A stretch of DNA of 64,000 nt from Antedon bifida (lineage: Eukaryota; Echinodermata; Crinoidea; Comatulida; Antedonidae), in assembly GCA_963402885.1 (NCBI GenBank), contig OY727095.1, positions 34,167,001 to 34,231,000 of the forward strand. Direction: 5' to 3'. Below, piece by piece: positions 11,436 through 63,749 of this stretch. A program made the translations under genes and the position numbers. Numbering within the stretch: position 1 is the stretch's first letter; each line of letters opens with the position of its first letter. A model generated the notes under the pieces. The model was not told where the DNA came from, did no database searches, and worked only from the letters and a program-made list of their open reading frames with translations.

Positions 11436-12090
11436 ACTGAAAAATGAAAAGAGAAGATAGAAATGAAGAGGAAGAATAAAAAGAGAGAAAGGGAGAAAGG
11501 AAAAAAAAGATGAGAAAGGAGAAGTGGAAAAATGAAAAGAGAAGATAGAAAGGAAGAGGAAGAATAAAAAGAGAGAAAGGGAGAAAGGAAAAAAAAGATG
11601 AGAAAAGAGAAGTGGAAAAATGAAAAGAGAAGATAGAAAGGAAGAGGAAGAATAAAAAGAGAGAAAGGGAGAAAGGAAAAAAAAGATGAGAAAGGAGAAG
11701 TGGAAAAATGAAAAGAGAAGATAGAAAGGAAGAGGAAGAATAAAAAGAGAGAAAGGGAGAAAGGAAAAAAAAGATGAGAAAAGAGAAGTGGAAAAATGAA
11801 AAGAGAAGATAGAAAGGAAGAGGAAGAATAAAAAGAGAGAAAGGGAGAAAAGAAAAGAGAAGAAAAAAGATGAGAAAGAAAAAGTGAAAAAAAATGAAAA
11901 GAGAAGATGAGGAGGGAAAAGAGGAAGAATAAAAAGAGAAGAAAAAAAGGAAGACTAGAAAGGAAGAAGAGGAGGGAAAAGAGGAAGAATAAAAAGAGAG
12001 AAAAGAAGATTCAAGATAGAAAAAGAGAAAGAAGAGAAGAAAAAAGGGGAAAAAGAATAGAAATGTAAAGGAGGAAAAAAAGAGAACAAT
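11436..12090. repeat. Homopurine 88-bp minisatellite
   Basis: About 650 bp of almost pure purine on the plus strand. The landmark AGTGGAAAAATG recurs at 11523, 11611, 11699 and 11787, giving an exact 88-bp period for at least four units, followed by less regular GAAGAGGAAGAATAAAAAGA blocks. The long stop-free frame on the complementary strand (Phe/Ser/Leu/Pro only) results from composition and is not a gene. Confidence 0.9.
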
Positions 12091-13643: not shown

Positions 13644-14362
13644 TACCGTAAATCTTTTTGTAACCCCGGGACTATTATTCTTTGATTGTTTTTTAGAGTG
13701 GGTTACTATTAGAAGGTGGGTTACTATTAGAGTAGTGGGTTACTATTACTAATCTTAAATTAGGCACCTGAAAATAGTAATCCACCCCACCTTTTCCGGT
13801 CAGCAACTCATAGCAAAATAATGAAACGGTACGAATAAATAAATTTGGTTGAACTTAATTAACTTTACTTTATAAACTCAAAAACACTCAATCCTCTCAA
13901 CATGCATTATCTCCTTATCATCATCATTTTGTCAATCGTTTTTGTGACTAATAGTAACCCCCATGGGTTACTATTAGAGTAGTGGGTCATTATTATAGAT
14001 TGACTTATAAGGTGGGTTACTATTAGAAGGGGGGGTTACTATTAGAAGGGGGGTTACTATTAGAGTGTGGGTTACTATTAGAGTGTGGGTCACTATTAGT
14101 GTGTGGGTTACTATTAGAGTGTGGGTTACTATTAGAGTGTGGGTTACTATTAGAAGGGGGTTACTATTAGAAGGGGGGTTACTATTAGAGTGTGGGTTAC
14201 TATTAGAGTGTGGGTCACTATTAGAGTGTGGGTTACTATTAGAGTGTGGGTTACTATTAGAGTGTGGGTTACTATTAGAAGGGGGTTACTATTAAAGTGT
14301 GGGTTACTATTAGAGTGTGGGTTACTATTAGAGTGTGGGTTACTATTAGAAGATTTACGGTA
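13644..14362. mobile_element. DNA transposon/MITE filled with an 18-bp minisatellite
   Basis: Perfect 13-bp inverted ends TACCGTAAATCTT (13644-13656) and AAGATTTACGGTA (14350-14362) frame the region; TA at each edge is a plausible target duplication. Next to each end is GTAACCC/GGGTTAC. From about 13960 to 14350 the interior is an 18-bp tandem array of consensus GGGTTACTATTAGAGTGT (about 20 units, some with AAGGGG in place of AGTGT). Two inverted copies occur near 13780 and 13955. It ends 100 bp before the SLC5A7 copy 1 start codon. Frames reading WVTIRV repeats are artefacts. Confidence 0.8.
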
Positions 14363-17400: not shown

Positions 17401-18397
17401 GTTAAATTTAATTGAATAAGGTTATGGTGCGCGAAGGGTATGGTGCGCAAAGGGTATTGCAGGTCGATGTATATAGCACTGATCATTGTCATTTGCCTTA
17501 ATCGGCTAAAACATATTGTGGAATTGATTTTCCGGTCGTGTGGTTTGATTTCACATTCAACCCAAGCTATCAACCTAACTCCGTCAACGTGCACTACAGA
17601 TTTTTTTTTGCTGTTACATCATTGCAGCGCTACTTTCATGCTACCGCATAACCTGTCATTTGTATAATTGTACCATTCATCAACATGCAGTATATAAAAC
17701 AGCACTATTTTTTTCCTCTACCAAAAGTCTTTTGTTTTCTTCATACGCTGCATTACATAGTTTCTGTGGTTTTATTCCATTTGCAATTCACCAATTCCCA
17801 TAGCAACATACTGTATTTTTAATAATCCACCCACTTTATCTTCCAATGCTGCTACTTACATTTTATGATGCCGACTGTATCAACTTTTTATTATTTCTTT
17901 TCAAGGCAAGTGAAGAAGAAATCATATGGGTGATGAGATGCGCCATTCTTGTATCTGGAGCCATCTCCAGTACTTTAGCAATAACAATTAATTCAATTTA
18001 TGGACTCTTCTATCTGTGTTCCGATTTCGTATACGTCGTACTTTTCCCACAACTTGTCTGCGTGGTATATATTGACTATACCAACACGTATGGGTCACTT
18101 GTCGCGTATATTTTAGGACTAACACTACGACTCGGTGGAGGTGAACCACTGCTTAGTCTCAGTCCGTTTATAGAATACCCGTTTTTTGATAATGGCGAAC
18201 AGTTGTTTCCGTTTCGTACATTTTCTATGCTCGTCTCCTTAACAACACTTATCCTTTTTTCTTATCTATTTCACTACATATTTACCAAAAATGTCCTGGA
18301 CAAGAAATGGGACATTTTTAAATGCGTAACAAACATGACATCACCGGCGGCGGATGTCGGTCTGGATGACATATTTAGGCCTAGGTCCAAACCATGA
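14462..18397 (+). CDS. SLC5A7: High-affinity choline transporter, copy 1
   Basis: Eight coding exons: 14462-14627, 14869-14976, 15089-15244, 15827-15975, 16175-16294, 16850-17003, 17135-17340, 17906-18397; 1551 nt, 516 aa. It matches the Na+/Cl- dependent choline transporter of cholinergic terminals (SLC5 sodium:solute symporter, 13 helices): [20 protein letters not shown] start, [96 protein letters not shown] and the GGEPLL block. The protein is about 60 residues shorter than human CHT1 because the cytosolic C-terminal tail ends soon after [12 protein letters not shown], so the tail carrying the human endocytosis motif is not present. An acceptor at about 14427 implies a non-coding 5' exon. 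AATAAA lies near 18536. Confidence 0.95.
15447..15520. repeat. Degraded family-N palindromic element
   Basis: Contains GAGTTGACCAATCACAAGCG and, inverted, GTGATTGGTCAAATGTTGCG, the core of the palindromic family clustered at 21.6-24.9 kb. The GTTCCCACTAG ends are absent. It lies in intron 3 of SLC5A7 copy 1. Confidence 0.65.
16596..16800. mobile_element. hAT-type MITE, second copy
   Basis: Starts CAAGGCAATCTAACAACA and ends TGTTGTTAGATTGACTTG; the interior shares ACCGCGCGCCG and TGAGCTCAGTGTCATG with the 7.3-kb copy. Flanks TTAATAA and TTAATAG are a near-match target duplication. It lies in intron 5 of SLC5A7 copy 1. Confidence 0.82.
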
Positions 18398-19420: not shown

Positions 19421-22400
19421 ATGGCGGTGAACTGGGAAGGTCTTATCGGTGTCGTCATCTTTTACGTCATCATCTTGGCAATTGGAATTTATGCTTCCAG
19501 GAAGAATAAAGGAAAATCATCTATGGAAGATGTCATGCTGGCTGGACGAAACATCGGGATGTTTCTCGGTGTTTTTACTATGACAGGTCATAATTATTGT
19601 AATATCATAATTTTATAAATCTGAGTCGTCATTAAATTGTATTATACTAATTGATCAACTTAAAGATATATTGTCCCTTTAAAAAAATAATTTTTAAAAA
19701 TACCTAAATAAAAATTAATATTTGTTAATGTGATGTTTTAAGAGAACTATATGTACGGTTTTCTTTTTATTTTATTGAAATCAATTGAATATATTTTCAT
19801 GCTTTAATTTAATTAATAATTTATACTTGCCATTTTATACATTTATCACCATTTTTGGTAAGTTGAAAGAAAATGTATGTTTATTTATGGAAAAGTCAAC
19901 ATTTAAATGTCACTGTCTACAAAAGTATATATTACCAGTATTTAATTTTTGGGTGGCTATCATGCGGCCTTTGACCTTAATGAAAGTCTCCCTGATCCTA
20001 CATTGTTTGCTTCTTTCAACTTTTAAGGAAGGCCAGTGTTTGCTCGCTCTTCCCTTATTGGTCCAATCTCGCTCTTCCCTGATTGGTCCAATCTCGCTCT
20101 TCCCTGATTGGTCCAAGCTCGCTCTTCCCTGATTGGTCCAAGCTCGCTCTTCCCTGATTGGTCCAAACTCGCTATTCCCTAATTGGTCCAAGATTTAAGA
20201 TTTAAATCAACTTGTGGCCTGTCAGACAAAGGTTTTTGGTTAAAATTAACCGTTTCTTTTGTCTTTTTATAAATGAAATAATTATGTTTGTTGATTTTTT
20301 TTCTACAGAATTAAAGTGAATACGGTAACTTTATTAAAACTGCAAAATGGCATATTCAAAATCTGATTTTATTAATCTAGTTTTTCATGTTTTTGGGGAC
20401 ATACATCTTTATTTATTCTTATAAGACTATAGTCTTAACTATGGCGGCGAAGAGCGTTGTTAAATTGCCTTATGCTATCGGTCTCAAACGTTCTCTTAAT
20501 TAACTGCGTTTAATTAAGAGAAAATGACCTCACTAATTTGATGCTAATCTGAACTGCTTCAATCCTAAATAAATATGTATATTTTTATTACTATTACAGC
20601 AACATGGGTTGGCGGCGGGTATATCAACGGTACAGCACAGTCGATTTATGATACTGGCTTAATTTGGGCACAGGCCCCATGGGCGTACTCTCTCAGCTTG
20701 TTTATAAGTACGTGCTTTACTTCTTTTAATTCATTTAATTTTACGTATAAAACATCACACTGTGCAATTAAGTAGGCCTAAGTTTTGACTTTCCCCAAGT
20801 CTGTAGTTATTCTCTTTTTATGTTAGTGTTAACGTTTTGATTTTTGTTTGAGCTCAAGTATTATACATATATGAAGTATATGTCAAACACATTCTAGAAC
20901 TTAGACTAGTCAAATATAGGCCTACTTTATGAAAATCACGACAGAAAGAAGCATTGTGTAATAATTATAGCTGTAAATAGTAATTATTATTTCTTGTCTT
21001 TTAAGATGGACTGTTCTTTGCTACCCATCTAAGAAAGCAACGTTACGTAACCATGTTAGATCCATACCAGATTAAGTATGGCGACCGAGTCGGTGTACTC
21101 ATGTTTTTGGCAGCTTATTCTGGAGAAATATTTTGGTCAAGCGCCATTCTAGCAGCACTTGGTGAGTGACTTTTATACAGTAAATATCGTAATCTTTTAT
21201 TTTATAATTCCTGAAAATTTTAAAAGTGTGAAATGTATCTTAGGACTACAATTCCACTAGTAGTCGTTCACTTCTCTGAACAAGACTTAATTGGGGAATC
21301 CTTAAATATTTACTGACTTAAGTTCAATACCTAGTATTTAAGAGAAATATCTCACTTAAGTATGGTTGATGAATACATGTTTTTTCTTTCAATATCTATG
21401 ACGTATATTTTGCAGGTTCAACATTCAGTGTAATCCTTGGTATCGACAAAACGCTTGCTATAATCGTATCAACGTGTATTGCCATGTCTTACACTCTCTT
21501 TGGAGGACTTTATTCAGTGGCCTATACTGATGTCCTCCAGTTAAGTTGTATATTTTTCGGATTGGTACGTGAATTGAAATGTTCTTTTAAGTGTCATATT
21601 TATTTGTAAAAACGGAAGACAACGCTGAGCTTATATAAAAATTAATAACTGTCGTCCTCCAGTCCATAGTAATGCTTGGTTCCCACTAGAGACGCAACAC
21701 AAGGACGTAACGCAACGCAAGTGAGTTGACCAATCAAAAGCGATGGATTATTCGAACTGTCACTTGCCATTGGTCAACACGCTTGCTTTGTGTATAAATC
21801 CTTCCGTTGCGTCCTAGTGGGAACAAAGCTTTAGGCTTAATCTGCATCTGTATCTTGCTCTCCAGTTTAACTTTAATAACTTTATAATTGTCTGAATTAT
21901 TTGTTTGTGTATTTTTAGTGGTTGGCGATTCCATTTGCTATGACAAACGAGCATGTTACGAGTATCACAGAGACGAATTGGTTTGGCACCTGGGAGAACA
22001 AATACACTGGTGTCTGGATCGAGGGTGTTTTGCTGTTGGTACGTCGGATAACTTCTTTGTAAACTATAGTTAACATATGTTTTCAGCATATATGCATATG
22101 AAATTTTAGTTGTTTTGGCCATGTTATACTTCTTGGTTGATTGGATCATATCAGATAAAATCAAACCACACCACCGCCTGTTGTTATAGTCCTTGTTTAA
22201 AGATTCATTTTCATAATCTATTAATATCATTCCTAATAACATTCCTAATATCATTCCTAATAACATTCCTATAGGCCTAGTTTTGCCACTAGCGGATGGT
22301 TCATTATTTTTCTCAATTGATTTAATTTTCAGAGTCTAGGTGGAGTACCATGGCAGGCGTATTTTCAACGTGTTTTGTCTGCCAAAACCCCTCGTTATGC

Positions 22401-23763
22401 ACGAATTTTGTCGTTTGCTGGTGCCGCCGGATGCATGATAATGACAATTCCATCGTTTCTCATGGGCGCCATTGGAGCTAGTACTAGTAAGTACATTTAT
22501 GGATAAAACTGTGATGTAACTAAAACTAGTACGCAACGTACGCAACTTAGAAAATGCCCTTCCAATAATTGTATTTGCCCCCACCTGCATCAATTCAAAT
22601 CTGCGATGTTTGCAGCACTGTTGCGTCGTCTGTTGCCACTTGTGATTACGAAATAAAGAACTTTGCTTCAATACGTCCTTTACGTTGCGTCGCTAATTGG
22701 AACCAAGCTTATGGAAAATTCTTTTATGGAAATATTTACTGTAATTATCTTAAAATCTTGTTTGCTGTATAGATTGGAATGAGACCGCATATGGCCAAGA
22801 AATCACAGACAGCAACATTGTACTTCCTCTAGTGCTGCAATACCTGACTCCTCAAGTCGTCTCCATCATCGGTCTTGGCGCTGTCTGCGCCGCTGTCATG
22901 TCATCAGCCGATTCGTCACTACTTTCAACAAGTTCGATGTTTGCTAGAAATGTATACAAACGTATAATAAGACCAAATGTAATTATATTTTTATTCTTTT
23001 AAATTTTAATTGTAGAACACATTATTTACACATACTATATTGTTGGTTCCAACTATAGAAACAGCAAAAGGACGTAAAGCAACGTAAGTGATTTGACCAA
23101 TCACAAGCGATGGATTATTTGAACTGTCGCTTGTCATTGGTCAACTCGCTCACGTTGCGTCTACACGTCCTAGAGAATAAGGGAAACAAGTTGTTTTTGT
23201 TAATTAATTTTCCCTATTGTATTTTCTTTTTCTATTTCAAGGCAAGTGAAAAAGAAATCATATGGGTTATGAGATGCTCAATTCTGGTATCAGGAACTAT
23301 CGCCAGTACTTTAGCAATAACAATTGATTCAATTTATGGACTCTTCTATCTGTGTTCCGATTTCGTATACGTCGTACTTTTCCCTCAACTTGTCTGCGTA
23401 GTGTACGTCAGTTTCTCGAATACGTACGGTGTGCTTGTTGGTTATTTTCTCGGGCTGATACTGCGGCTTGGGGGTGGTGAACCGCTTTTGGGCCTTAAAC
23501 CTTTTATAGAATACCCGTTTTATGAAGATGGCGAGCAATTATTTCCGTTCCGGACATTTGCGATGCTCGTTTCACTAACAACGCTGTGTGTCGTCTCGGC
23601 TCTATTTCATTACTTATTTACTAATAATATTTTAGATAAGAAATGGGATGTGTTAAAATGTGTGACAAACATTCAGTCTGAAGATGAGGGGAAAAACGCT
23701 TTCAAAACGCAAAACGGTCTGACTGTTGACGTGGGGTTATCTATGCTAACTAATAATGAATGA
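19421..23763 (+). CDS. SLC5A7: High-affinity choline transporter, copy 2
   Basis: Eight coding exons: 19421-19586, 20600-20707, 21006-21161, 21416-21564, 21919-22038, 22333-22486, 22773-22978, 23242-23763; 1581 nt, 526 aa. Exons 1-7 have exactly the same lengths and phases as copy 1 (166, 108, 156, 149, 120, 154, 206 nt), so this is a tandem duplicate. Function is as for copy 1: Na+-coupled choline uptake for acetylcholine synthesis. Exons 1, 4, 5, 7 and the first half of 8 are nearly identical to copy 1, while exon 3 ([20 protein letters not shown] against [20 protein letters not shown]), exon 6 and the tail ([19 protein letters not shown] end) differ clearly. The stop is followed by AATAAA near 23848. 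All helix-core motifs ([36 protein letters not shown]) are intact, so the product should be functional. Confidence 0.95.
19661..20411. mobile_element. MITE family G (TAAAGATGTATTGTCC ends), diverged copy with internal CCAAT repeat
   Basis: The left end TAAAGATATATTGTCCC and right end GGGGACATACATCTTTA resemble the perfect ends of the 39.3- and 40.2-kb copies. The internal block AAAATGGCATATTCAAAATC also matches them. It contains the 25-bp tandem array at 20038-20186. It lies in intron 1 of SLC5A7 copy 2. Confidence 0.6.
20038..20186. repeat. 25-bp tandem repeat, GCTCGCTCTTCCCTGATTGG-TCCAA
   Basis: Six consecutive units of about 25 bp, each with ATTGG (inverted CCAAT box). The same unit occurs singly at about 18720-18800 upstream of this gene. 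The minus-strand open frame through it is a repeat artefact. Confidence 0.85.
21672..21832. mobile_element. Palindromic MITE family N, complete copy
   Basis: Left end GCTTGGTTCCCACTAGAGAC, right end GTCCTAGTGGGAACAAAGC. The inner arms carry CGCAACGCAAGTGAGTTGAC and CCAATCAAAAGCGATGG, with their complement after ATTATTCGAACTGTC. The element is nearly one long hairpin. It lies in intron 4 of SLC5A7 copy 2. Confidence 0.8.
22525..22711. repeat. Family-N element, degraded copy
   Basis: Ends in TACGTTGCGTCGCTAATTGG followed by AACCAAGCTTA; internal GTTGCGTCGTCTGTTGCCAC. The left arm is partly lost. It lies in intron 6 of SLC5A7 copy 2. Confidence 0.6.
23041..23176. repeat. Family-N element
   Basis: TTGGTTCCAACTATAGAAAC at the left, TTGACCAATCACAAGCGATG and its complement in the arms, CACGTTGCGTCTACACGTCC at the right. 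It lies in intron 7 of SLC5A7 copy 2. Confidence 0.75.
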
Positions 23764-28617: not shown

Positions 28618-31600
28618 ATGGCAGTGTCTAATAAAACTAATCGAGAGTTCACCAATTTGAAGTCTGATCTTGGTCGACTTTTTGACGGCGACCGGTTGCT
28701 TTGGTTAAAATTCTGCTTATTCGAGCATTTACGTATAGGGGTCCTCACAAAACCGAATGTCGTTGGAAATGATTTTTTCAATGAAATACATGACAATGGT
28801 AAAATAACACCTAATAATGTTAATCTTTTATTGGAGATTACAAAATTATGTGAATTAAAGAAAGCTGAAGAGCTTGTACTCCAGTATATTAGAGATAATG
28901 ATGCTGAACATACAGAAGAAAACATATCACGTCGTCGAAAATTTATGTTTACAAAGTTGCGAAATGTTGATCCAGATGCGTTAAAGAGGGTTATTGCTTA
29001 CTATGATCTGGCAAGATATAACTACACCAACATTTGGGATGTAACATTCAGATTGGAAACCGACCAACCTTCGAAAGAACCAGACAAGAAAGATGTGTTT
29101 GATGATCTTCTTCGACTGATTGTACATCATAGAAATGAACCACCACGTAGTGGTGTGCATAGAAAGAGAAAAAGAGAAGAAGGTATTAAATTCAAACAAA
29201 ACTTGGTCATATTCATTAACTTATAATCTTCAAACTATCACAACTAACAGTTTGTTGGATTTAGTATGTAAAAATAAAAGTTATACATAAAGTTGTTTTT
29301 ATTTTCAGTTTATTTTTGGGGTATTAACATTTTTTTAAATTTTCATAGGAGTTAGTGAGTATGAGTATGACGATGGTAAAGCATCAGGTTCTAATAAAGG
29401 AGCAGAAGGTAAACGTGAATTGATATTTATATATTAGCAGTTATCAATTTCCAACATTTAACAGAAGACTGAACGAAAAAAAATGATGTATTTTACGACC
29501 TTTTACAGCCAATTTTACACAACAAAAATGAACCATCCCTTTTCATAATAAATTTGGATCTTTAAACCATGGCAATAAATTGTTTTTTAATTGTGTAAAC
29601 ATTAACAAATATTATTAAGGTTTGTTTTTTGTTGTTTTTTAGGAAATAGAGAGGATAATGATGACAAATGTGTACCATCTAGTTCCAAACATCGACAAGA
29701 AGGTAAAAAAAACAAAAACAAAACTTGTAGCCGTCTTCTTCTGAAGACACATGGCTGTCATTGACGGATACTTAGTATCAGTTGACTTCACTGCTGGTGT
29801 ACTCGAGATCTAAGTTTATACACGCTATACACATTTATTTTAATTTTTTATTTATACAACTTTGAGAATAAGAGGTAATCAATAATAATTTTAATTAGCA
29901 ATAATCTAATCTAAGAAGTCAAATATTAACCTATAAATTAGTATTTTATTCATAGAAACCTATATTGACTGCCTAAAGAATCCAACAATTCTATAAGACA
30001 TTTTTACCAGGTTTAACATAGAATATTTCTGTAGAACTGTATAACTATTAAAACTTATTAAACATTAAAATATTTATATTTATTCCTACACAATTGTATA
30101 GAAACCTTTCTGATCATATGACATTTTTTGATAGGATTAAATTTATAAAATCCCTATTTGTTGTACACTCAAAAAGAAATAATGTGATACAACGTTGGAA
30201 TTTCACAATAATTCTCTATTCTCATTACAACTCTAACTTGATGTGTATTTTGTTCTGTACAGATTTTCCTGTAACACTTCAAGATGAAAGCCATAGTATG
30301 TATACTTCTTATGACCACTTTGACTTAAATGTTGCTGTTTGTCGGCAAATGCCTACAAACAGCAACCTCTTGTTTTGGTTACATTTGTATTCTGTAATAG
30401 TATTCTAGATAAGATCTCAAATATTGACATTAAGTCATTTTAATGTACAGTAACTGACTATAATTTCTTTGCCATTGGTATTGTTTATACTTCTTCACAT
30501 AAATTTAAAAACAAGAAATGCTAACCTTCCACTGTAATACATTTTGTTTTAACAATAAAAGCTCTCATTTCATTTCTCAATTTTTGCATTCTCGCGGACT
30601 GCAAAACTCTGATTTTAATTTTTTTTAAACAAACATTTGTATGTTTATGGCGTAAACGGATTAAATTTTCATCATATTGCATGTTATTAGGTGATCATTT
30701 AGAATGCTAAATGATCACCTATTGTTATTGTATGAAATCTTTATTTTTTTTCTTTTTATTGTTTCTGTACACTATTTTGTGTAACAATTATCTCAAAAAT
30801 TTTAATGTCAATGATTACCAAAATTTCAGAATATCTTTCAAATAATATAACTTAATCCTAATAAGCTTTCCAGCGTGATCACTCATCCGTGACGACATTT
30901 ATACGCCATTTTGCGAAATCACATTATCAATCATATCTCCATAATTCATTATCACATATTAATGAAATTCACTACACGTAAACTTCAGGTCAAGGGTAAA
31001 AATATTAGCAAATAAAAAGTTGCGCGTTTCAAGGTCATGTACGTGAAATCGCGCGTTAAAAATTTAGAACGCTCAAAATTAAGTTTTGATCAATTTAGAG
31101 CATGAATTAGGCCATTTGCGCGTTTCAAAAAATTACTGCACAAAAACGCGTTTTTGCGCACGCGATTCTTAGAAAGCGTAAAAAATAAAATTTGATGTAT
31201 AAATCACAATCTACTCACAATTCTTAGTACATTCACCGATTTTGAGTCCATTCCGACTTAAGATAACGCTATACGAGCACATTAAAAATGACAAAATGCG
31301 CAAATTAATTGCATCAAAGTGCTGAAAATGGTGAAAAATAAGGCATTTTTAAAATGAAAATAACTCTTCAGGATGCAAGATGACCCCCAATTTTTTTAAC
31401 TTATTCGGGAAGCCATTGAGTTGTAGATATGAATTCATGTGCACATTTGACGTACAAAATGTTGTGACGTCATCAAATGGCCACTTGAATTTAAAATTAA
31501 GTTTTTTTTCTCTTTTGTCATATTTTATCACATTCAATAGAACGCATCTCTAATAATTTGTACCTGATTTTCGCTCAAATTTTAGTATGTGATTGCTCAA

Positions 31601-34600
31601 TTAATTGACTTTCTCATGACCTGCCACTATTTTTATTTTGATGACGTCATCACGCGTAAAACTTGAATAACGTAGGTTGTGTAATTTCACCTTCGCCGTA
31701 AATTTGAATATCTTACAGCTCTTCAGAATTAAAGGTTACCTTGATAATTATAATTTATTATGAAAGCTGATGAAATGTAGATATGAATTCATATAAAAAA
31801 TAAGCCTATAGGATGTTGTGACGTTAACATATGGCCAGTTGAAGTTTAAAAGTAGTTTTTTCATCTTTTTCGTCAAAGTTATACAAATTTCAAAGAGCGC
31901 GCACAGCGCTTCTACATGCCAAATTCTCTTCCAATTCTTATATTTATTTGCTCAATTCATTATCTTTCGAAATTGTCATCTTCGAGTTTATTTTGATAAT
32001 TCCATCATACCAAAAAATTAAAACATGATGTGTGTCCCGTAATTTCACCTATGCTACACTGTATATAGATATACATTATATACTGTACATAATGTATATG
32101 GCATATAATAGGCTCAACTCAACGCTATAAGCGTATAATAGGATGGCATACATCAACATTTTCTGATCATATGTTAACGTACGTGCATGTAAAAAAAAAA
32201 ATTAATTTCATTAAAATGATAAAAATGATCACCTATAATTCGTCAAAGTGACGAATTAAATTCTAGTTTTTAAATTATTATTTGTCATTGTTGTGCCATG
32301 TATTTTATTTACTTTTTCAATTCTCTTACAGAAAAAATAAAAGTATATCTACTAAGTAAACAAGAGATATTTCTGCAAAATGCCAAGAAATTTACACCAG
32401 CAATATTTAATAAATTGTACCAAGTCGATGTTTCTGAACTATTCACAGAGTTGGATCTACTCAAAGGAAATATAAAAACGAAGGAGAGTGAGTCAACTAC
32501 ATTAAAAGATGTGTTAGCTACCATCAAATCCACACCTGCGTGCAAAGTCCTAATAGATGGTGAAGGTGGTATAGGTAAAACTACACTATTAAGGTACATA
32601 GCATATAATGCAGGTACAGATAAGTCATTTGATATATTTGAAGGTAAAATTGTTTTTCTGTTGAATATAAGAGATTTAGAGAAAGATCAATCAATTTTAG
32701 ATCTCATGATAAAGCAACTCGATATGGAAGAATTTGAATTAAAAACAAATATTGCAAAAGGTACATCATTAATCAAAGAATTCATTGTAAACAATGATAA
32801 TAAAATTGTGTTGTTGTTAGATGGATTAGATGAATTAAAATTTGAGAATAAAAATTGTATTCGTCTTTTCAGAAGGGAAAAATTAAGGAGTAGTGTAGTG
32901 ATACTCACCTCGCGAACAGAAAACACAGATGCATTCATAAATGCGTGTGATGTACACGTAAGAGTAAAAGGGTTCAAAGAAAGTAACATTGAAAAATATA
33001 TTGACAATCACTTTATGCATTTCGAAAAACCTGACTTAGGAAAATCCCTTAGAGAAGAGTTATTTGGTGGTTTTGAACATGAAGAAATATGTTCAATGTG
33101 CACAAATCCAATGTTACTTCTCACAATTTGTGTTTTGTGGACAGACAACCAAAATCTTCCTCACGATAAAACTGATCTTTTTAAAGAAATGTTTCGTAGT
33201 ATTTTAAATCAGTTCATCAAAAAGCAACAACAACACAATTTTATTTCTAAATTTGATGATGCTCCAGAAGAGTATATCAATGCTATGATTTGTTTAGGGG
33301 AATGCATGTATCATAGCTTAAAAAGAAATCAACTTTCAATAAAGAAGAAAAACCTTCTTGGTGACAAAAGTATGATTGATATTGCTCTGAAACTTGGGTT
33401 TGTTTATGAAGATGCACCAATTTCAATGTCTAGCTTTGAAGAGAATTATATGCCTCCACACAAATTAATAGTTGAGTCATTGGTGGGATTTTATTTATAC
33501 AAACTCGGTGAGATTGAAGGTATGGAAAACACATGCACTCGCGTAAACCCATTATTTGCGCCATTAGATGAAAAAGAATGGAAAGAAATCAGACAAAGTG
33601 ATTATTTTGAAAGGACAAGGGAGTTTGCAATTGGGTTCCTTGGAGCTGATGCTGGTACATTTTTAAAGCATTGGATTACAAATGATTTGACAGCATATCA
33701 ATCTATTGATAGTTACTTGGGATTGGTAAAACAGCATCATTTGGATAATGTTGAAAAAACATTGATTAATCACATATCTAATACAACTTTAGAAATAAAA
33801 GAAATTTTGGAAGAAATTTCAAATTTATTAAGAATGTTCATCCAGTTTGTAAGAAAAGATGACAACGTTGATAAACATTTTTTAAATATTTTGAGGGAAT
33901 TTCATAAAACACTTGATCCTTTTAAATATTTACAGAGTTTTTTTAATGCAATATCATTATCACCTGATGGTAAAGGAAAGGCTCTTGCACACATTTTATG
34001 TGTTTCAACATATGCTCAAAGTGACATATTTGACATGCACAATTGTAATCTATCAGGTACTGTAATGAATGCTATGAGTAGAGAGTTTTCTAATAGAGGA
34101 GTTCAGTTGGGAGTACGGCGCTTCACTATCAGTGGTAATAATCTTAGTGACATTGACGTTGCTTCACTGGTTTCTGTATTGAGTATGATGAATCCTTATA
34201 GTAGACTTGACATGCACAATTGTAATCTATCAGGTACTGTAATGAATGCTATGAGTAGAGAGTTTTCTAATAGAGGAGTTCAGTTGGGATTACAATACTT
34301 CAATATCAGTGGTAATAATCTTAGTGGCATTGACGGTGCTTCACTGGGTTCTTTACTGAGTATGATGTTTCTGTTGAATGTACTTGACATGCATGATTGT
34401 AATCTATCAGGTGCTGTAATGATTGCTATGAGTAGAGAGTTTTCTAATAGAGGAGTTCGGTTGGGATTACAAAACTTCAATATCAGTGGTAATAATCTTA
34501 GTGACATTGACGTTGCTTCACTGGTTTCTGTATTGAGTATGATGAATCCTTATAGTAGACTTGACATGTACAATTGTAATCTATCAGGTACTGTAATGAA

Positions 34601-36089
34601 TGCTATGAGTAGAGAGTTTTCTAATAGAGGAGTTCAGTTGGGATTACAATACTTCAATATCAGTGGTAATAATCTTAGTGGCATTGACGGTGCTTCACTG
34701 GGTTCTTTACTGAGTATGATGTTTCTGTTGAATGTACTTGACATGCATGATTGTAATCTATCAGGTGCTGTAATGATTGCTATGAGTAGAGAGTTTTCTA
34801 ATAGAGGAGTTCGGTTGGGATTACAAAACTTCAATATCAGTGGTAATAATCTTAGTGACATTGACGTTGCTTCACTGGTTTCTGTATTGAGTATTATGAA
34901 TCCTTATAGTACACTTGACATGTACAATTGTAATCTATCAGGTACTGTAATGAATGCTATGAGTAGAGAGTTTTCTAATAGCGGAGTTCAGATGGAATTT
35001 AGTGACTTCAATATCAGTGGTAATAATCTTAGTGACATTGACAGTGCTTCACTGTGTTCTTTACTGAGTATGATGTTTCTGTTGAATGTACTTGACATGC
35101 ATGATTGTAATCTATCAGGTACTGTAATGAATGCTATGAGTAGAGAGTTTTCTAATAGAGGAGTTCAGTTGAGAGTACGGTGCTTCAATATCAGTGGTAA
35201 TAATCTTAGTGACATTGACGGTGCTTCACTTGGTTCTTTACTGAGTATGATGAATCCTGATAGTACACTTGACATGTGTCCGTGTCATACACTTGACATG
35301 CATGATTGTAATCTATCAGGTACTGTAATGAATGCTATGAGTAGAGAGTTTTCTAATAGAGGAGTTCAGTTGGGATTTAGTGACTTCAATATCAGTGGTA
35401 ATAATCTTAGTGACATTGACTGTGCTTCACTGGGTTCTGTATTGAGTATGATGTATCCTTATAGTACACTTGACATGCATGATTGTAATCTATCAGGTAC
35501 TGTAATGAATGCTATGAGTAGAGAGTTTTCTAATAGAGGAGTTCAGTTGGGATTTAGTTACTTCAATATCAGTGGTAATAATCTTAGTGACATTGACGGT
35601 GCTTCACTGGGTTCTGTATTGAGTATGATGATTCATTATAGTACACTTGACATGCACGATTGTAATCTATCAGGTACTGTAATGAATGCTATGAGTAGAG
35701 AGTTTTCTAATAGAGGAGTTCAGTTGGGAATTAAAGACTTCAATATCAGTGGTAATAATCTTAGTGACATTGACGGTGGTTCACTGAGTTCATTACTGAT
35801 TATGATGCTTCAGTTGAGTACACTTCACATGCGTGATTGTAATCTATCAGTTGATGTAATGAACGCTATGAGTAGAGGGTTTTCTAATAGAGGAGTTAAG
35901 TTGAGAATAAAACACTTTTTTATCAATGGTAATAATCTTAGTGGCATTGACAGTGCTTCACTTGGTTCTTTACTGACTATGATGGATGAGTGGGGTACAC
36001 TTGACATGTATGATTGTAATCTATCAGGTGCTGTAATGATTGCTATGAGTAGAGAGTTTTCTAATAGAGGAGTTCAGTTGGGATTATAA
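28618..36089 (+). CDS. NLR-type receptor: DED - NACHT - leucine-rich repeats (ends at an early stop)
   Basis: Model: exons 28618-29182, 29349-29408, 29643-29702, 30263-30295 (33-nt exon, less certain) and 32332-36089; 4476 nt, 1491 aa. All introns are phase 1; the two 60-nt exons encode a hydrophilic linker (EGVSEYEYDDGKASGSNKG and similar). Residues about 10-90 look like a death effector domain (LKFCLFEHLRIG, FFNEIHDNGKITPNNVNLLL, EITKLC). NACHT follows: Walker A GEGGIGKTT (about residue 315), Walker B KIVLLLDGLDELK (about 400), then helical subdomains. From about residue 807 a 59-residue unit (two ribonuclease-inhibitor-like LRRs) repeats. NLRs are cytosolic sensors; a DED would recruit caspase-8-type adaptors. 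The TAA at 36087-36089 arises where sister units have CAA, cutting unit 12. The array continues in broken form to 37655. It is either a shortened receptor or a recent pseudogene. Confidence 0.85.
30687..32266. mobile_element. Helentron-like (Helitron2) non-autonomous element
   Basis: The 5' end is a hairpin, AGGTGATCATTTAG with its complement CTAAATGATCACCT (30689-30720). The same arm recurs near the 3' end (AATGATCACCT, 32224-32234), followed by a terminal hairpin AATTCGTCA-aag-TGACGAATT and the end CTAG (32263-32266). This asymmetric terminal repeat plus 3' hairpin and CTRR end is the Helentron pattern. The interior shares segments (TTGTGACGTCATCAAATGGC, TCTTTTGTCATA, CACATTCAATAGAACGC) with the 41.4-kb element. 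It occupies the NLR intron and ends 65 bp before the NACHT exon. Confidence 0.72.
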
Positions 36090-37556
36090 CACTTCAATAT
36101 CAGTGGTAATAATCTTAGTGGCATTGACAGTGCTTCACTGGGTTCTTTACTGAGTATGATGTTTCTGTTGAATGTACTTGACATGCATGATTGTAATCTA
36201 TCAGGTGCTGTAATGATTGCTATGAGTAGAGAGTTTTCTAATAGAGGATTACAAAACTTCAATATCAGTGGTAATAATCTTAGTGACATTGACGGTGCTT
36301 CACTGGGTTCTTTACTGAGTATGATGCATCAGCGGGGTACACTTGCCATGCATAATTGTAATCTATCTGGTGCTGTAATGATTGCTATGAGTAGAGAGTT
36401 TTCTAATAGAGAGTTAAGTTGGAATTACAACACTTCAATATCAGTGGTAATAATCTTAGTGACATTGACGGTGCTTCACGGGGTTCTTTACTGAGTATGA
36501 TGAATCCTTATAGTACACTTGACATGCACAATTGTAATCTATCAGGTACTGTAATGAATGCTATGAGTAGAGAGTTTTCTAATAGAGGAGTTCAGATGGG
36601 ATTTAGTGACTTCAATATCAGTGGTAATAATCTTAGTGACATTGACGGTGCTTCACTGGGTTCTTTACTGAGTATGATGTTTCTGTTGAATGTACTTGAC
36701 ATGCATGATTGTAATCTATCAGGTACTGTAATGAATGCTATGAGTAGAGAGTTTTCTAATATAGGAGTTCAGTTGGGAGTACGGCGCTTCAATATCAGTG
36801 GTAATAATCTTAGTGACATTGACGGTGCTTCACTTGGTTCTTTACTGAGTATGATGAATCCTTATAGTACACTTGACATGAGTCCGTGTCATACACTTGA
36901 CATGCATGATTGTAATCTATCAGGTACTGTAATGAATGCTATGAGTAGACAGTTTTCTAATAGAAGAGTTCAGTTGGGATTACAACACTTCGATATCAGT
37001 GGTAATAATCTTAGTGACATTGACGGTGCTTCACTGGGTTCTTTACTGAGTATGATGCATCAGCGGGGTACACTTGCCATGCATAATTGTAATCTATCAG
37101 GTGATGTAATGAACGCTGTGAGTAGAGAGTTTTCTAATAGAAATATCAGTGGTAATAATCTTAGTGACATTGACGGTGCTTCACTGGGTTCTTTACTGAG
37201 TATGATGCATCAGCGGGGTACACTTGATATGCATAATTGTAATCTATCAGGTGATGTAATGAACGCTGTGAGTAGAGAGTTTTCTAATAGAGGAGTTCAG
37301 TTGGGATTACAACACTTCAATATGAGTGGTAATAGTCTTAGTGACATTGACGGTGCTTCACTGGGTTCTTTACTGAGTATGATGCATCAGCGGGGTACAC
37401 TTGACATGCATAATTGTAATCTATCAGGTGATGTAATGAACGCTGTGAGTAGAGAGTTTTCAGTTCAGTTGAAATACTTCGACATCAGTGGTTATAATCT
37501 TAGTGACATTGACGGTGTTTTTGGGTTCTCTATTTTAGTATGTCCTCTCAACTGAG
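34030..37556 (+). repeat. 177-bp LRR tandem array, about 20 units
   Basis: Unit consensus over 59 codons: LDMHDCNLSGTVMNAMSREF, SNRGVQLG, a variable 3-residue site, FNISGNNLSDIDGASLGSLL, SMM, then a variable 5-residue site. Variable site 1: GVRR, GLQY, EFSD, GFSY, GIKD, RIKH, VRC. Variable site 2: NPYSR, FLLNV, YPYST, IHYST, LQLST, DEWGT, HQRGT. The rest is nearly identical at DNA level. Units 2-3 and 4-5 form a 354-bp duplication (34204 and 34558). Units 7 and 16 share an extra 8 residues (LDMCPCHT/LDMSPCHT), indicating a larger block duplication. Units 13, 18 and 20 have internal in-frame deletions. Confidence 0.95.
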
Positions 37557-37655
37557 TTTTGCTTAACAATAACATGCATGATTGTTGTTTATCAGATAGT
37601 GTACTTAGTACAATAATGAAAGACTGTTCAAACAGAGGAGTAACATTTTTGTCAT
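36090..37655 (+). pseudogene. Broken 3' part of the NLR LRR array
   Basis: After the stop at 36087-36089 the same frame stays open to about 36410, where one G is missing (AATAGAGAGTT against AATAGAGGAGTT in sisters), shifting the frame. The new frame is open to the stop at 37555. A further shift near 37530 separates it from an apparent C-terminal capping unit (MHDCCLSDSVLSTIMKDCSN, then RGVTFLS and stop, ending at 37657). Three lesions, all single-base, therefore lie in the last third of the array, while the first eleven and a half units are intact. Confidence 0.8.
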
Positions 37656-37659
37656 AAAT

Positions 37660-39674: not shown

Positions 39675-40110
39675 TATGCTTACTTTTTATTTATTGTCAA
39701 GATTGATGTATCTATAATGAATGTATTCATGTTTTACATTTGACATTCTTCATGTACCAGCCATCGAATCGTCACTTGCACTCGACACATTAAAATGTGA
39801 TGTGCCCATATATGGACACAATGATGTCATATCACTTTTTATTTATTGTCAAGATTGATGTATCTATATTAATGTATTCATGTTTTACATTTGACATCCT
39901 TCATGTACCAGCCATCGATTCTTCACTTGCACTCGACGCATTAAAATGTGATGTGCCCATATATGGACACGATGACGTCAATCACTTTTTATTTATTGTC
40001 AAGATTGATGTATCTTTATTAATGTATTAATTTTTTAATGATACATTTGATATTCTTCGTGTACGAGCCATCGATTCTTCACTTGCACTCGACGTATTAA
40101 AATGTGTTTT
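39675..40110. repeat. About 152-bp tandem repeat carrying pieces of MITE family T
   Basis: TTTTTATTTATTGTCAAGAT followed by TGATGTATCT recurs near 39682, 39835 and 39986. Units include CATGTACCAGCCATCGATTC, CACTTGCACTCGAC, and in two of three a family-T core (AATGTGATGTGCCCATATAT then GGACAC). Confidence 0.85.
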
Positions 40111-46800: not shown

Positions 46801-49800
46801 AGTACAGCTTCTTGTTCTAAGAGTTATCTGCTTCTTGTCTGCTCATAATGGTAAATATACAATTCTCCTAAATCAAGATCCCAATTCTTTCCTATTACAT
46901 TACATACTGGAAATTTAAATATAACTTTTTTAACTTATTCTAAAATGTTTTTAGGCTCTTTCATGAAGACAAATTTCAAATTATGTTATCTTGACAATAA
47001 AGTTATCTTGAATCTTATTTTGAATCTATATATTAAAACTGAAAATCTGGGTAACCAAGTATTTTGAAGCAGAGTTCCTTTTTTGGTTTTAAAAATTAAT
47101 TTTTCACTAGCTGTCTGAAGCTCTGTCTACACTATCAAACTTTATGTGACAACAAAATGTTATGTGCCCATGTATGGAAATGATGATGTCATATCACTAC
47201 CATATTTGGGCATATCACTACCATATTTGGGCATATCACTACCATATTTGGGCATATCACTACCATATTTGGGCATATCACTACCATATTTGGGCAAAAT
47301 TGTTTTTTTAGAAAATAGTTTGATAGTGTAGAGCTTTACAATCGGAAATTGATTTAATAACAAGTTAATTGAAAGATATAAATGTTTCCAAATTACTAAA
47401 TGCAATAAATTTAATGTATTTGAACATGATGATGATGATGATGAGAAACTACAGTTAAAACCCAAGCATATTTCATTTATTTAACTTATTTAATTCTTTG
47501 ATTTTGACAGATAAGTTCAAACAGCTATTGATAAACCAGACAGGTTTGATTGAGCATATCCCAACATGCCTTGCAAGTGGTGAAAAGGAAGTGATGCATT
47601 GGTCACTTGACTTGGTGCATGGTATCGCCATGACCGGTACGGTGTTGAATAGTTATTTTAACTAATACTATTGTACTGTACTATTCTACAAATTATTAAA
47701 TTAGTCAACTCTCCCAATAGCAGACTGTCTCTGAAAACCAGAAATTCTTTCCTTGAGGTCAAAAGTTCCCAACTTTTTTCCTAACATTTAAACTCATTCG
47801 TGTTTACAGCCACCCAGACATATTAGACCAGCCCAAGTGTGTGTCTGGTATTGTTAACTATATATAGTGTAATTTATGCAACACCCAACTTTTTCAGCAA
47901 TGCTGATCTAGTTTACAAATCATTTTAAATATCAAAAGTAATATTTGTAATAATTTAGGTAGAAGAGCTCTGGAAAACCTTCTTAATTTTACCAATGATA
48001 AAATAATAGAATCACTTATCAGCATCATAAGGACGACGGACGACACTGTTCAACTGCGCCTCCTTGCTGAAACGCTTGGCTTCTTCTGTTCGTGTGGTAA
48101 GCTCTACAATAAATACAATTTGTAATAATTCCAATAACTGGCTTTTAGCTAGCAACCATGTTGTTAAACATTACTGTATTTCTATCAACATTAAAGATCT
48201 ACTATATCTTCCATCTAAATTATACAGTCAACTCTTCCCAAAAAAAATACATCAAAGTTTTCTTTTTATACATTGTGAAAAATTTTATAAAACTGGAATT
48301 TCTGGAAAAGTACTACTGTACATCATTTTTTGGAGAGCATGGTATCGTCTCGTTAATACCCAGCTATTTAAATTCTTTCGTTCTACTACAAAGTCAGTCA
48401 TATATGTAGGCCTTATGGTCGTAGGGAGATGTTAAAAACAGACAAGACAAAGATGTGAACACTTATTAAGCCAGTTAATATTGATTTTTTTTTCCGTTTT
48501 CAATTTTATGTACAGAAAGTCTTCATTTACGTGTAGTAAAAGCTGGTGCATTAGTTGGTATTTTAAAGTTCTCTGAAATGCATGATCCTGACCTGGTCTT
48601 CTGGTCTGCTGCCTTGCTGCTTAACCTTGCCATGACTTCAGGTATAATACCCTTTTTCACATCTGCATAGATTGTTACAACTTGCAACCAGCTTTGAACT
48701 CCTGATTTATTAAACGTTTTCATGTGCGAACAGTGAAAAATCTCTGGAGAAATTGCACACTATTTGATTACTGTAATTGCTCAGTTTAATACCAGGGCAA
48801 TACATGCATGCATGCAGTAACAACTCGGGACATCTCGGAACAAACAAAAAACAGACTCTCATCAGTGTGTTTTTCTCAAGGGACCCCTGTGAAATCTTGA
48901 GAGATTTTCCACAAAATTGTCTTCGCACTATGCAAACCTGGTTACAACTTGATACAAGTTGTTACTTTTTGCAGATGAGAAAAGTCCAGTTTTTGTGTAT
49001 GTTAAATGTTAAGTTATTTAAAAAATAGTATAGATCAATAATAGTGTAGTTATCTGATTTTCACAGATAAAGTAAAACTGTGTATTCTGAAAGCTGGTGG
49101 TCTTCACACTTTAATGGAGTTAGCACTTGGTGACTATGACAACAGTCAGGTGACTACAATGGCCGCCAAAACTCTTGTCATGATGGGATATGTAGGTATG
49201 TTTTATTTTTAGTTTTACAGTGAGTCATTGCCAAAAATGTGGGATGTGCCCAAATGTGGTAGTGATATTCCCAAATATGGTAGTGATATGACAATCATCA
49301 TCATGTCCATTTATGGGCACATCACATTTTGTGTCACATAGATAGTGTAGGCAGAGCTTTAGTTCATGTATTTGTAATAAGCCATGATCAAATTAACCAG
49401 CACTATTTATTGTTACAATTATTTTAGGTTTTATTTTATATATTGATTTTATTTTTCTTTCTTTAGAGGGTGCTCTCCAAATTAAAGTTCATTGTGGCGT
49501 TGATATTGCCAAAGTCTGTGTTGTTGACAAAGATTTTAACCTCAACTCTCAGGGGGTATGTCATACTGTAATTGGTTTCTTTTGCATTTTGCTCCTTTAG
49601 AACTGAACAACATACATCCAAAATGTCTGGAAGTTTTAGAAAGTGATTTTAAATATAGTTATTTGTGATAGTCATAAACATATTCAGAATTTAAAAAAAT
49701 AATAATCGTAACTTTGTTTTAAGTCAATTATTTCAAAATATCATAAGGAAAAAATGTTTACATAGCTCTTCAATCTTAAATGATGCAACTCTTTTTATAA

Positions 49801-52800
49801 GATAAAAATCTGATTTGATGATAAAGCCTCCCCTCAGATTGTTACTTAAGCATTGTGCTTAAAGGGAGAGACAGAGAACAAATTATGTTTAATATTTGAT
49901 ATTTTTTCTAATAGATCAGCATTATGATGTGGGATACATTGCATAGCTGTCAATCAATTCATCAAAGTTTCAACTTTGACACCATGTCTGATGACATGAC
50001 CGCCATTAAGATACCTTGTTTGGAGGAAGCTGGACCAAATGCCATTGGCAATCTTGTATTTATGATAATTAAAGGAGAATTTGGACCAAGACTTCTCAAA
50101 GGTAAAGCTCTGTCTACACTATCAAACTTTATGTGACAAAAAATTGTGATTTGCCCATATATGGACATGATGATATCATATCACTACCATATTTGGGTAT
50201 ATCACTACCATATTTTAAGGCACATCACACTTTTTTTGTCAAACTAGTTAGTCATCATTATTATCTTGCTATAAGTTTGATATGAACTGGCGTAAATTAA
50301 ATGAAGTTTAATTTAACAGAGATGTTAAATTAAATATGAATGATTTTATTGTTTATTTATGTCTTTATATTATAAATATGAATAATATTTTTGCTTCAAA
50401 ACAAAGAAAAATAAAGCCTTATATTATTGTTGTACTGTTTTATAGACTTGAAAGAAACCTTGAAATTCAGTGAGCACACCACAGTAACTGGCACATTAAC
50501 CTCTGACCTTTTGAGCCTTCCTGTTGATCATATGTGTGTGATTGTAAGCATTTTAGAGGATGACAAGAAACTTGATGTTTGGCATATTAGTAAAAGTTGC
50601 AAAGAGATAGATCTGCAATTAAAGTTCCCATATGGTAAACTATCAACTGGTTTGAATTGTGTAGCTTTAACCACCCTTAAATAGAATAGATGAATAGATT
50701 CATTTGTCATTGTCAAAAATAGCTATAATACAATTAGTGTCCTTGTGTTTTATTAAGGCCACACCAAGAGTATTTTAACATTTATGCAGTAAATAATTTG
50801 AGTCATCATTCATTTTTGTCATTTGGTCATTTAGTGTTGGTCCACTCAATGACCTTTATGCGATCAAACAAAGTGACACATTTAAGCTATTAATTTCATT
50901 TTACAGACAGTAATCAAATAAAGATCAAACATGGCTTCCCTCGGAATCTGTTTTATTATACTATGTTATTTTAACAATATCAGTGCATCATTAAGCAATA
51001 CTAATTAGCAATTTCAACATTTACTAAATAATGACCCAATTTTCATTCTTGGTTTTATATGAATCATCCAATGTTGTTTTTTATTTGGCAGAACGAATTG
51101 TAAAGAATCGTGTCATAAGATTAGTATTGGATCCAGAGTTAAAGCTGCTACTGTCCTTACCGCTGACCTGTCCAATCAGCCGAGCGTCCAGTCTAGAACT
51201 TGTAGAGATTCTAGCAAGACCGGATTATTACATTGATGTTCTTTTACAGTATCAATTGCTTCCTCATTTAAGCTCTCCAATTTGGTAAGTACTCTTTCAA
51301 AGTTCTCATACACCATAGAGATAATTATTATAGTGAACTATAATATCTCTATGCATACACTAATGCACAGTATTTGTTTTATGCCCAAAGTGCATGATGG
51401 TCCACTCCTCCTTAACCTCTGTCTACACTATCAAACTAGTTTGACAAAAAAAGTGTGATGTGCCCAAATATGGTAGTGATATGTTCAAATATGTTAGTGA
51501 TATGGCATCATCTTGTTCATATATGGGCACATCACATTTGTTTGTCACATAAAGTTTGATAGTGTAGACAGAGCTTTAGATAAATCAAAATTGAGCTATA
51601 TAACACATGTAAGCTACAGTATGTGAACTTTGCTTGAGATCTTTAAAAAAAAGTAGTACAAAGATTACTTTTTATTTATTTTGTAGGTATTGTTCAAAAA
51701 AAGGTGTTGATGAAAGCCAAGGTGAACCGGTTTTAGTGGCTCATTGTCTTGGTGCCCTGAAGCTTCTAGTTGTCTTGTCTGTCAATGGTATTTGTTTTTA
51801 TTAATGTTTTCAATTAATTAATATTGTGTTTTTTAAAGTAAGAAAGAGTTATCAGTTAAACATTTATTTACACTATGTTGGCCAGTGGAAAATCCTTTGC
51901 AAATGGGTATAGTGTTGGATATTAAAATAAAACGTTTAATTCAAATTCTGTTATGATGTAAAGAACATCGCTTAAAGAACCATCATGATGTTTGTCCAAC
52001 CATAGAGATAATAATATCTCTATGGTTGGACAAACATCATAGAGATATTATTATCTCTATGGTCCAACTACTGAGTAACCTTTGGCTATGAAATGGTTAA
52101 ATAAAAAACCTAACTTTGTTTCCTATAATATGACCATTTTATTTCATTTTTAGATGTATATCGTAAGAAAATACTTTTACATGATACGGTCAATGCAGTT
52201 GCATCTTTGCTGTATGAACTTGTTAGTGTCTGGCTTAAAGCTACGCTGGAAGGGAGTCTAGCATCCACCAGACCATTCAGCAGGTCTGGACATGAGTCTA
52301 ATGTACCCAGCAGTTTGTAAGTTTTCCAAATTGTTGTTATTTTTATTGTATGTCTTTAGGCACATGTGGCCAAGAATTACAAATAGCAAATTAATCACTT
52401 GCTCTCCTATCAGGTAGGTGGTAATCCCCCTGATACAGGGGCTATTTTATGAACCAGTTCACCAGGGTAACCCCTACTCTTCCCGAATGATGATGGGTTC
52501 TTTAATGTCCACAGGTTATAACTGTGTACACTAGACCTACGGTTTATAGTCTGAGAAGACTTGTTCCACCACCATAACTGAAGCGAGTCCCCCCAAACCC
52601 ATGCTGATATTGTTGCCTCTGCCTTAACCTCTAGCCAATTTCACTGATTTTGACTTATCCATGGTATTAAAAACGAAAAACTCTACTAAAAAATTGTTGC
52701 CTTTTGTATATATACAAATTTTTTTTTGAACTTTTAATGAATTAGATATTTCTGTGAAACACGGCAGGATAGTCTAGCAGACAGCATTAGTATAGACAGT

Positions 52801-63678: not shown

Positions 63679-63749
63679 TGACCCCAACATGATTTGAACA
63701 TGCACTTTCTGATCTGGAGACAGACGCGCTACCATTGCGGCATAGACAC
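63679..63749 (-). pseudogene. tRNA-Trp(CCA)-like sequence, decayed
   Basis: The minus strand reads GCAATGGTAGCGCG, TCTGTCTCCAGATCAGA and GTTCAAATCATG then TTGGGGTCA, matching tRNA-Trp with anticodon CCA. The 5' acceptor strand (GTGTCTA) no longer pairs with TGGGGTC, one D-stem base has changed, and the anticodon stem has a T-T mismatch, so it is probably a pseudogene or a SINE head. Confidence 0.7.

Follow-up and report, generated by a model that had tools for sequence, protein, structure and literature searches.

A tandem array of ribonuclease-inhibitor-type repeat pairs with two variable cassettes per unit in an NLR gene of the crinoid Antedon bifida

Does a receptor gene built of nearly identical repeats diversify by exchanging them, or is such an array the remnant of a gene no longer in use? 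This question is raised by a plus-strand NLR gene, carrying a tandem array of leucine-rich repeats (LRRs), in a 64,000-nucleotide stretch of Antedon bifida DNA (contig OY727095.1, positions 34,167,001 to 34,231,000; hereafter the window, to whose whole length all positions refer). We find it probable that the gene belongs, in truncated form, to a family of crinoid NLRs whose arrays become uniform through unequal exchange or conversion, with selection diversifying one face of the repeat fold. Below, array units are labeled u01-u20, NACHT loci of the same genome L0xx and database protein models P0xxx.

The gene spans positions 28618-36089 and was modeled as follows.
28618..29182, + strand: predicted exon 1, encoding a DED-like effector region at the N-terminus (end taken from the GT donor)
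29183..32331, + strand: predicted intron, GT...TTCTCTTACAG, phase 1 (donor GT at 29183; acceptor AG at 32330-32331)
32332..36089, + strand: predicted exon 2, NACHT and the LRR array as far as the stop (open reading frame, ORF, 32298-36089; acceptor AG at 32330-32331)
32547..33014, + strand: NACHT domain, ORF residues 84-239 (PF05729, E 6e-18, 65.7 bits against a cut-off of 26.7)
Over about 157 residues, the exon 1 ORF shared 38% identity with the N-terminal parts of the crinoid NLRs P0003 and P0016, which match DED weakly, under its curated cut-off; a profile search with exon 1 itself returned neither a DED match nor any other Pfam domain. Exon 1 would be spliced to exon 2 (29182 to 32332), and joining the two in silico preserves the frame and yields 1440 residues with a single stop, at the end. 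Exon 2 comprises 1263 open codons with an intact NACHT match, and the C-terminal LRRs were detected by PF00560 (LRR_1, 67.5 bits), in agreement with the predicted model and the fold matches. With both a NACHT domain and C-terminal LRRs, the gene is an NLR, as an earlier sequence-only reading of this DNA had stated, and an innate immune role may be supposed for it. Its closest database matches came from two other crinoids, Anneissia japonica and Antedon mediterranea (P0001, 43% identity across 99% of the query), from which all 42 of the 42 matches listed for the LRR region were also named; the nearest A. mediterranea NACHT relative, P0013 (57%), has 5 units.

We then delimited the array and its irregularities.
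34029..37562, + strand: tandem array of 20 units (u01-u20) with two ribonuclease inhibitor (RI)-type LRRs each (TRF, anchors, LRR_1 matches, predicted model)
35268..35291, + strand: 24-nt insert LDMCPCHT in u07 (unit alignment, letters checked)
36872-36895, + strand: near-copy LDMSPCHT of the 24-nt insert in u16 (unit alignment, letters checked)
TRF reported a period of 177 over 34030-36880 and a period of 354 reaching 37461, and the 19 spacings between the 20 anchors were 177 nt in 14 cases, 201 nt in two, and 165, 176 and 150 nt in one each. The codon alignment contained 19 units, u20 being left out as degenerate, and their mean pairwise nucleotide identity was 89.4% (range 79 to 99). The proposal of about 20 near-identical units of exactly 59 codons was accordingly right as to number and similarity but not as to exact length, given the 14 of 19 regular spacings, the two inserts and the deletions in four units (u13, u14, u18 and u20). 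In the predicted model (AF2, pLDDT 84), the 59-codon unit forms two strand-helix pairs, with alternating repeats of about 28-29 residues as is typical of RI-type LRRs, and its best sequence and fold matches were RI and NLRP proteins. The unit is an ordinary two-LRR RI-type block, such as occurs in NLRP3 exons, and the claim that this LRR layout had no known precedent among NLRs is not supported.

Several observations suggest that the units exchange sequence, as had been proposed. One recent event is the following duplication.
34206..34913, + strand: recent two-unit duplication, u02-u03 against u04-u05, 354-bp blocks, 99% identical (pairwise identities)
Similarly, u06-u07 and u15-u16 were 97-98% identical and have the 24-nt insert in common, and four-gamete conflict was observed in 141 of 406 informative site pairs of the window array (115 of 253 in L016). 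When the cassettes described below were set aside and the scaffold was compared, the nearest relative of a unit lay within its own array for 16/16 units of the window, 21/21 of L016 and 34/36 of L011, but for only 7/9 of L023. On these comparisons, in which the other arrays are relatives and none is a true orthologue, the repeats of the window array undergo concerted evolution. The data comprise one genome and database models of two other crinoids, and unit-number differences are therefore differences between species, with counts that may be affected by incomplete protein models. Against the nearest NACHT relatives, well-covered units numbered 33 in L012 and 7 in P0029 (76%), 21 in L016 and 6 in P0031 (76%), and 29 in L015 and 13 in P0003 (73%). 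Units 1 to 4 of L012 each matched the unit of the same number in P0029, and the remaining 29 of 33 all matched P0029 unit 6, from which we conclude that one unit was amplified.

Against this homogenised background, two short blocks per unit stand out, exemplified by u02.
34287..34298, + strand: cassette 1, codons 28-31, GLQY of u02 (top-entropy block, letters checked)
34368..34382, + strand: cassette 2, codons 55-59, FLLNV of u02 (top-entropy block, letters checked)
Amino-acid entropy over the 19 units amounted to 7.2 bits at codons 28-31 and 9.2 bits at codons 55-59, that is, 16.4 (about half) of a total of 32.9 bits, and none of 20000 column shuffles yielded two equally strong blocks. The earlier localization of diversity to two spots thus captures half of the entropy but misses seven other variable codons (4, 5, 11, 14, 44, 48 and 50), two of which (44 and 48) show no synonymous difference at all. 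Likewise, the concave residues, described as mostly constant, are mostly but not wholly so (0.64 bits per site, compared with 0.29 for the rest). Fourteen states were found for cassette 1 and nine for cassette 2, in 17 distinct pairs among the 19 units (three of the 19 rows contain a gap or the stop), in line with the view that cassettes are recombined among units. The ratio of replacement to synonymous change (dN/dS; Nei-Gojobori, all pairs) was 2.27 in cassette 1, 4.83 in cassette 2 and 0.99 elsewhere. This excess at both spots, for which the sequence-only reading had called for a dN/dS comparison, was supported by bootstrapping over units: pN-pS ranged from 0.216 to 0.322 at the nine cassette codons, and the intervals of the other two classes included 0.

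We further examined the genome itself (315.6 Mb, 27 contigs), in which at least 103 NACHT matches were found. Twenty-six NACHT loci were fetched (5 or 10 kb each), mostly by longest open frame, so that arrays are over-represented, and 22 of the 26 had 7 or more units (exceptions: L025, L027, L029 and L032). In some paralogues, 21-36 near-identical units lie in unbroken frames, as in L011 (36 units, 2647 aa) and L012 (33 units, 2431 aa). Two intact loci, L016 and L023, are located on the window's contig, about 0.9-1 Mb from the window. Codons of standard-length units were divided into pre-strand columns (class A) and concave positions 5, 7 and 8 (class B). The window array had dN/dS values of 3.56 in class A and 0.55 in class B (19 units), and class A values were similarly high in L016 (2.77; 19 units) and L023 (3.5; 8 units), in both of which six concave codons showed no change, synonymous or not. 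The opposite tendency was exhibited by L011 (0.27 in class A and 8.13 in class B; 33 units) and L015 (0.59 and 2.54; 21 units), and both classes were elevated in L012 (4.97 and 2.37; 24 units), which includes units of 54 and 57 codons with the length differences at the cassette loops. By these measures, pre-strand variation in some arrays and concave-face variation in others occur within the same genome.

Among 54 arrays with at least 7 HMM-aligned units from this genome, A. japonica and A. mediterranea, 12 exceeded 75% mean internal identity, of which eight were more variable before the second strand and four at concave positions (P0001 being a near tie, 1.13 versus 1.10 bits). The possibility that the window's pattern is common to all crinoid NLR arrays is ruled out by these four. 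The A. japonica and A. mediterranea models have the same NACHT family and unit, with mean unit identities of 86% in P0121 and 80% in P0001, two A. japonica database models in which near-identical arrays were already present, unremarked; the cassettes of the window array are its own, unlike theirs. Elsewhere in the genome, NACHT domains of other NLR loci were up to 91% identical to A. mediterranea models (L022 versus P0060). A second large NLR group was seen on contig C7 (about 31.9-36.0 Mb), a dense NACHT cluster with many open frames near 670-740 aa, and L009, L010, L013 and L022 form a divergent subfamily of NLRs, whose composite repeats are much longer and contain the segment NNLSDIDGVSLSKLVN, with up to 2720 aa in one frame.

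The array of the window is not open throughout, and its lesions and end are listed here.
36087..36089, + strand: in-frame TAA in u12, the codon being CAA in 8 other units (ORF list, unit alignment)
36408..36420, + strand: 1-nt deletion in u14, shifting the frame (alignment; next open frame 36419-37555)
37574..37657, + strand: diverged half-unit ending CSNRGVTFLS-stop (read from translation, letters checked)
Beyond the TAA, the frame remains open until u14. A single 20-unit ORF is ruled out by these two lesions, both overlooked in the sequence-only reading. Every deletion (12 nt in u13, 1 in u14, 27 in u18, and 9 plus 6 in u20) is downstream of the stop and falls within codons 21-32, and u20 shows further breakdown at its end. 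As a separate observation, these deletions (36177-37562) adjoin cassette 1, where family length also varies, and the region may be a deletion hot spot or else a hinge at which such changes are tolerated. The half-unit at 37574-37657 probably represents the former C-terminus, since about 15 of 64 crinoid homologues (counted by eye; some models partial) end at the same unit place as CSNRGVTFLS. In the predicted model, the truncated protein ends at a similar unit place, past a complete helix and ahead of the next strand, and it is possible that the u12 stop is a natural protein end. This coincidence is weak, because a C-to-T stop requires a Q codon, and Q codons sit there.

These lesions raise the possibility that the gene is a decaying pseudogene, its array a by-product of tandem duplication in a disused gene and the unit differences a result of drift. 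The in-frame stop, the 1-nt deletion and the further breakdown of u20 are as expected under decay, as are the position of every deletion downstream of the stop and the dN/dS of 0.99 at non-cassette codons. However, exon 2 retains its open codons and its NACHT match, and drift predicts a dN/dS of about 1 throughout rather than 2.3 and 4.8 in two blocks alone. Moreover, the replacement excess was alike before and after the stop (cassettes 1 and 2: 2.19 and 5.58 in u01-u11, 2.06 and 4.50 in u12-u19) and hence predates the lesions, and the same pattern is found in intact paralogues. We therefore regard drift in a disused gene as an unlikely origin of the array, although pseudogene status may hold for the gene today without bearing on that origin.

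An alternative is structural tolerance, in which the variable stretches are permissive loops under low constraint rather than sites of selected diversity. The predicted model places the cassettes on the helix-to-strand loops and the first strand residue, mostly in loop, and length differences within the family, such as those of L012, also occur at loops. Relaxed constraint would nevertheless give a dN/dS of at most 1, compared with the 2.8 to 3.6 observed before the strands, and L011 and L015 conserve these very loops but vary on the concave face, which makes this explanation quite improbable. An assembly artefact affecting unit number, order or lesions appears very unlikely: near-identical NLR repeats are known to assemble poorly from short reads (PMC12222747), and one lesion is a single-base deletion, but the contigs measure tens of Mb, unlike those of a short-read assembly, diagnostic bases distinguish the units, paralogous arrays of 21-36 units are fully open and the other lesion is a substitution.

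Several points weigh against a homogenised and selected array. The evidence consists of sequence and a predicted fold from a single genome, and the second half of the gene is broken, so that present function is not assured. The dN/dS values are pairwise counts over non-independent, exchanging units with multi-base codon changes, reliable in direction and rough in size, and the non-cassette codons of the window array carry no purifying signal. No excess in class A or B was found in L017 (0.48 and 0.87; 7 units) or L014 (0.52 and 1.08; 14 units). For L016 and L023, the class A columns were initially chosen with those arrays already in view. The entropy permutation and bootstrap tests were repeated using the nine columns of the window array exactly as they stood; the observed entropy was reached in 0 of 20000 permutations for L016, 18 for L023, 627 for L012, 6264 for L015 and 15422 for L011, an enrichment in L016 and L023 but not in L011 or L015. 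Exchange is also not universal, the nearest scaffold relative lying within the same array for only 3/7 units of L034, 3/5 of P0031, 3/7 of P0034 and 3/9 of P0004. A fixed unit number and order in related species had been named beforehand as an observation that would speak against exchange, and the outcome was divided: L012 differs from P0029, whereas the 8 units of L034 follow the order of the 10 in P0004 (best matches 1, 3, 3, 4, 6, 6, 7 and 8).

On balance, we favor the explanation of exchange combined with selection. In the proposed course of events, a DED-like exon would be followed by a single large exon encoding NACHT and tandem RI-type LRR pairs, and unequal exchange or conversion would homogenise the units of the array. 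Countering homogenisation, selection would preserve replacement differences in two short segments of each unit, and according to the predicted model these segments should align along one edge of the horseshoe, which is most likely the recognition surface. Further NLR genes of the genome would follow the same logic, on the same edge in L016 and L023 and on the concave face in L011 and L015. The array would have grown to about 20 units and later been truncated by the u12 stop; a 1440-residue receptor ending in u12 may still be made, and its expression, ligand binding and working in truncated form are presumed from the sequence. The idea of a modular receptor diversifying by unequal exchange of 177-bp units is supported by the signatures of exchange and the replacement excess; the second half of the gene is broken by the stop and the frameshift.

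The likeness to other repeat-shuffling immune receptors that had been suggested is found in fungal NLRs (PMC1805685, PMC4986451, PMC12222747). In the NWD genes of Podospora, near-identical WD40 repeats evolve in concert, are polymorphic in number and contain four codons under strong selection (PMC1805685, PMC12222747). Fungal ANK and TPR NLRs resemble them, their selected sites being mainly concave, and no LRRs were found in fungal NLRs (PMC4986451). The window gene has in common with these high-internal-conservation NLRs (Podospora NWD/HNWD het-d and het-e; ANK, TPR) near-identical repeats after a NOD domain, concerted evolution, which in the fungi proceeds by unequal crossing-over or conversion, and a few hypervariable codons with replacement excess. 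It differs in being an animal gene with RI-type LRRs instead of WD40, ANK or TPR repeats, and in its selected sites, which in the window, L016 and L023 lie before the strands and in fungal ANK and TPR NLRs are mostly concave. Repeat-number polymorphism is demonstrated for the fungal genes (PMC1805685), whereas in crinoids unit number differs between species (L012, L015 and L016). The window gene works like fungal high-internal-conservation NLRs, yet it is not one of them, since it has LRRs and belongs to a crinoid. Variable lymphocyte receptors of lampreys are LRR receptors whose diversity also derives from varied repeat modules, but these are somatically assembled and extracellular.

Among animal proteins, vertebrate NLRPs and ribonuclease inhibitor share the alternating LRR pair with the window gene and give the best sequence and fold matches. 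Human NLRP3 has LRR exons of 171 bp, which encode two LRRs with lengths of 28 and 29 residues (PMC6642158); there each LRR pair has its own exon, whereas the window array has 20 near-identical pairs within one exon. Homogenised LRR arrays in NLRP genes were not reported in the portions of the literature examined. The two-LRR unit is ordinary; twenty in a single exon are not. Zebrafish NLR-B30.2 genes are expanded animal NLRs, with one group having extensively duplicated LRRs and gene conversion, but their LRRs are termed not particularly variable and diversity resides in B30.2 (PMC4852459), unlike the window gene, where it resides in the LRRs. A sea cucumber reportedly has a single NLR with LRRs (PMC8913654), and in the accessible open-licence literature on crinoid NLRs no description of such arrays was found.

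Other features of the window lie outside the gene. Two plus-strand ORFs (17846-18397 and 23110-23763) encode closely similar peptides with no Pfam match, probably by tandem duplication, and resemble a choline transporter exon. An ORF at 59544-60881 contains a PWWP domain (PF00855, 48.3 bits), and a tRNA gene lies on the minus strand at 63679-63749 (Rfam, 39.8 bits). A 21-bp minisatellite, CATATCACTACCATATTTGGG, occurs at 47190-47296, 49249-49289 and 51455-51504, with short copies nearby in opposite orientation; further minisatellites were located at 11439-11944 (period 88 bp), 14012-14350 (18), 20042-20192 (25) and 39682-40106 (151).

Fungal NLRs are the well-described case of repeat exchange and are without LRRs (PMC4986451), and the crinoid LRR arrays suggest that the strategy arose again in animals. 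We tentatively propose, at less than even confidence, that crinoids evolved their own version, based on LRRs and in an animal, of the fungal NLRs that shuffle repeats. Single-exon arrays of up to 36 homogenised pairs would constitute a germ-line repertoire, exchange would deal out cassettes, and different genes would have put their diversity on different faces of the horseshoe, either the classical concave face or a new pre-strand edge serving as a recognition surface. The contrast between concave and pre-strand diversity within one genome would allow the face used by each receptor to be read from its sequence and put to the test. More broadly, the interest of the locus rests with the intact genes nearby and with the way the diversified face changes from gene to gene.

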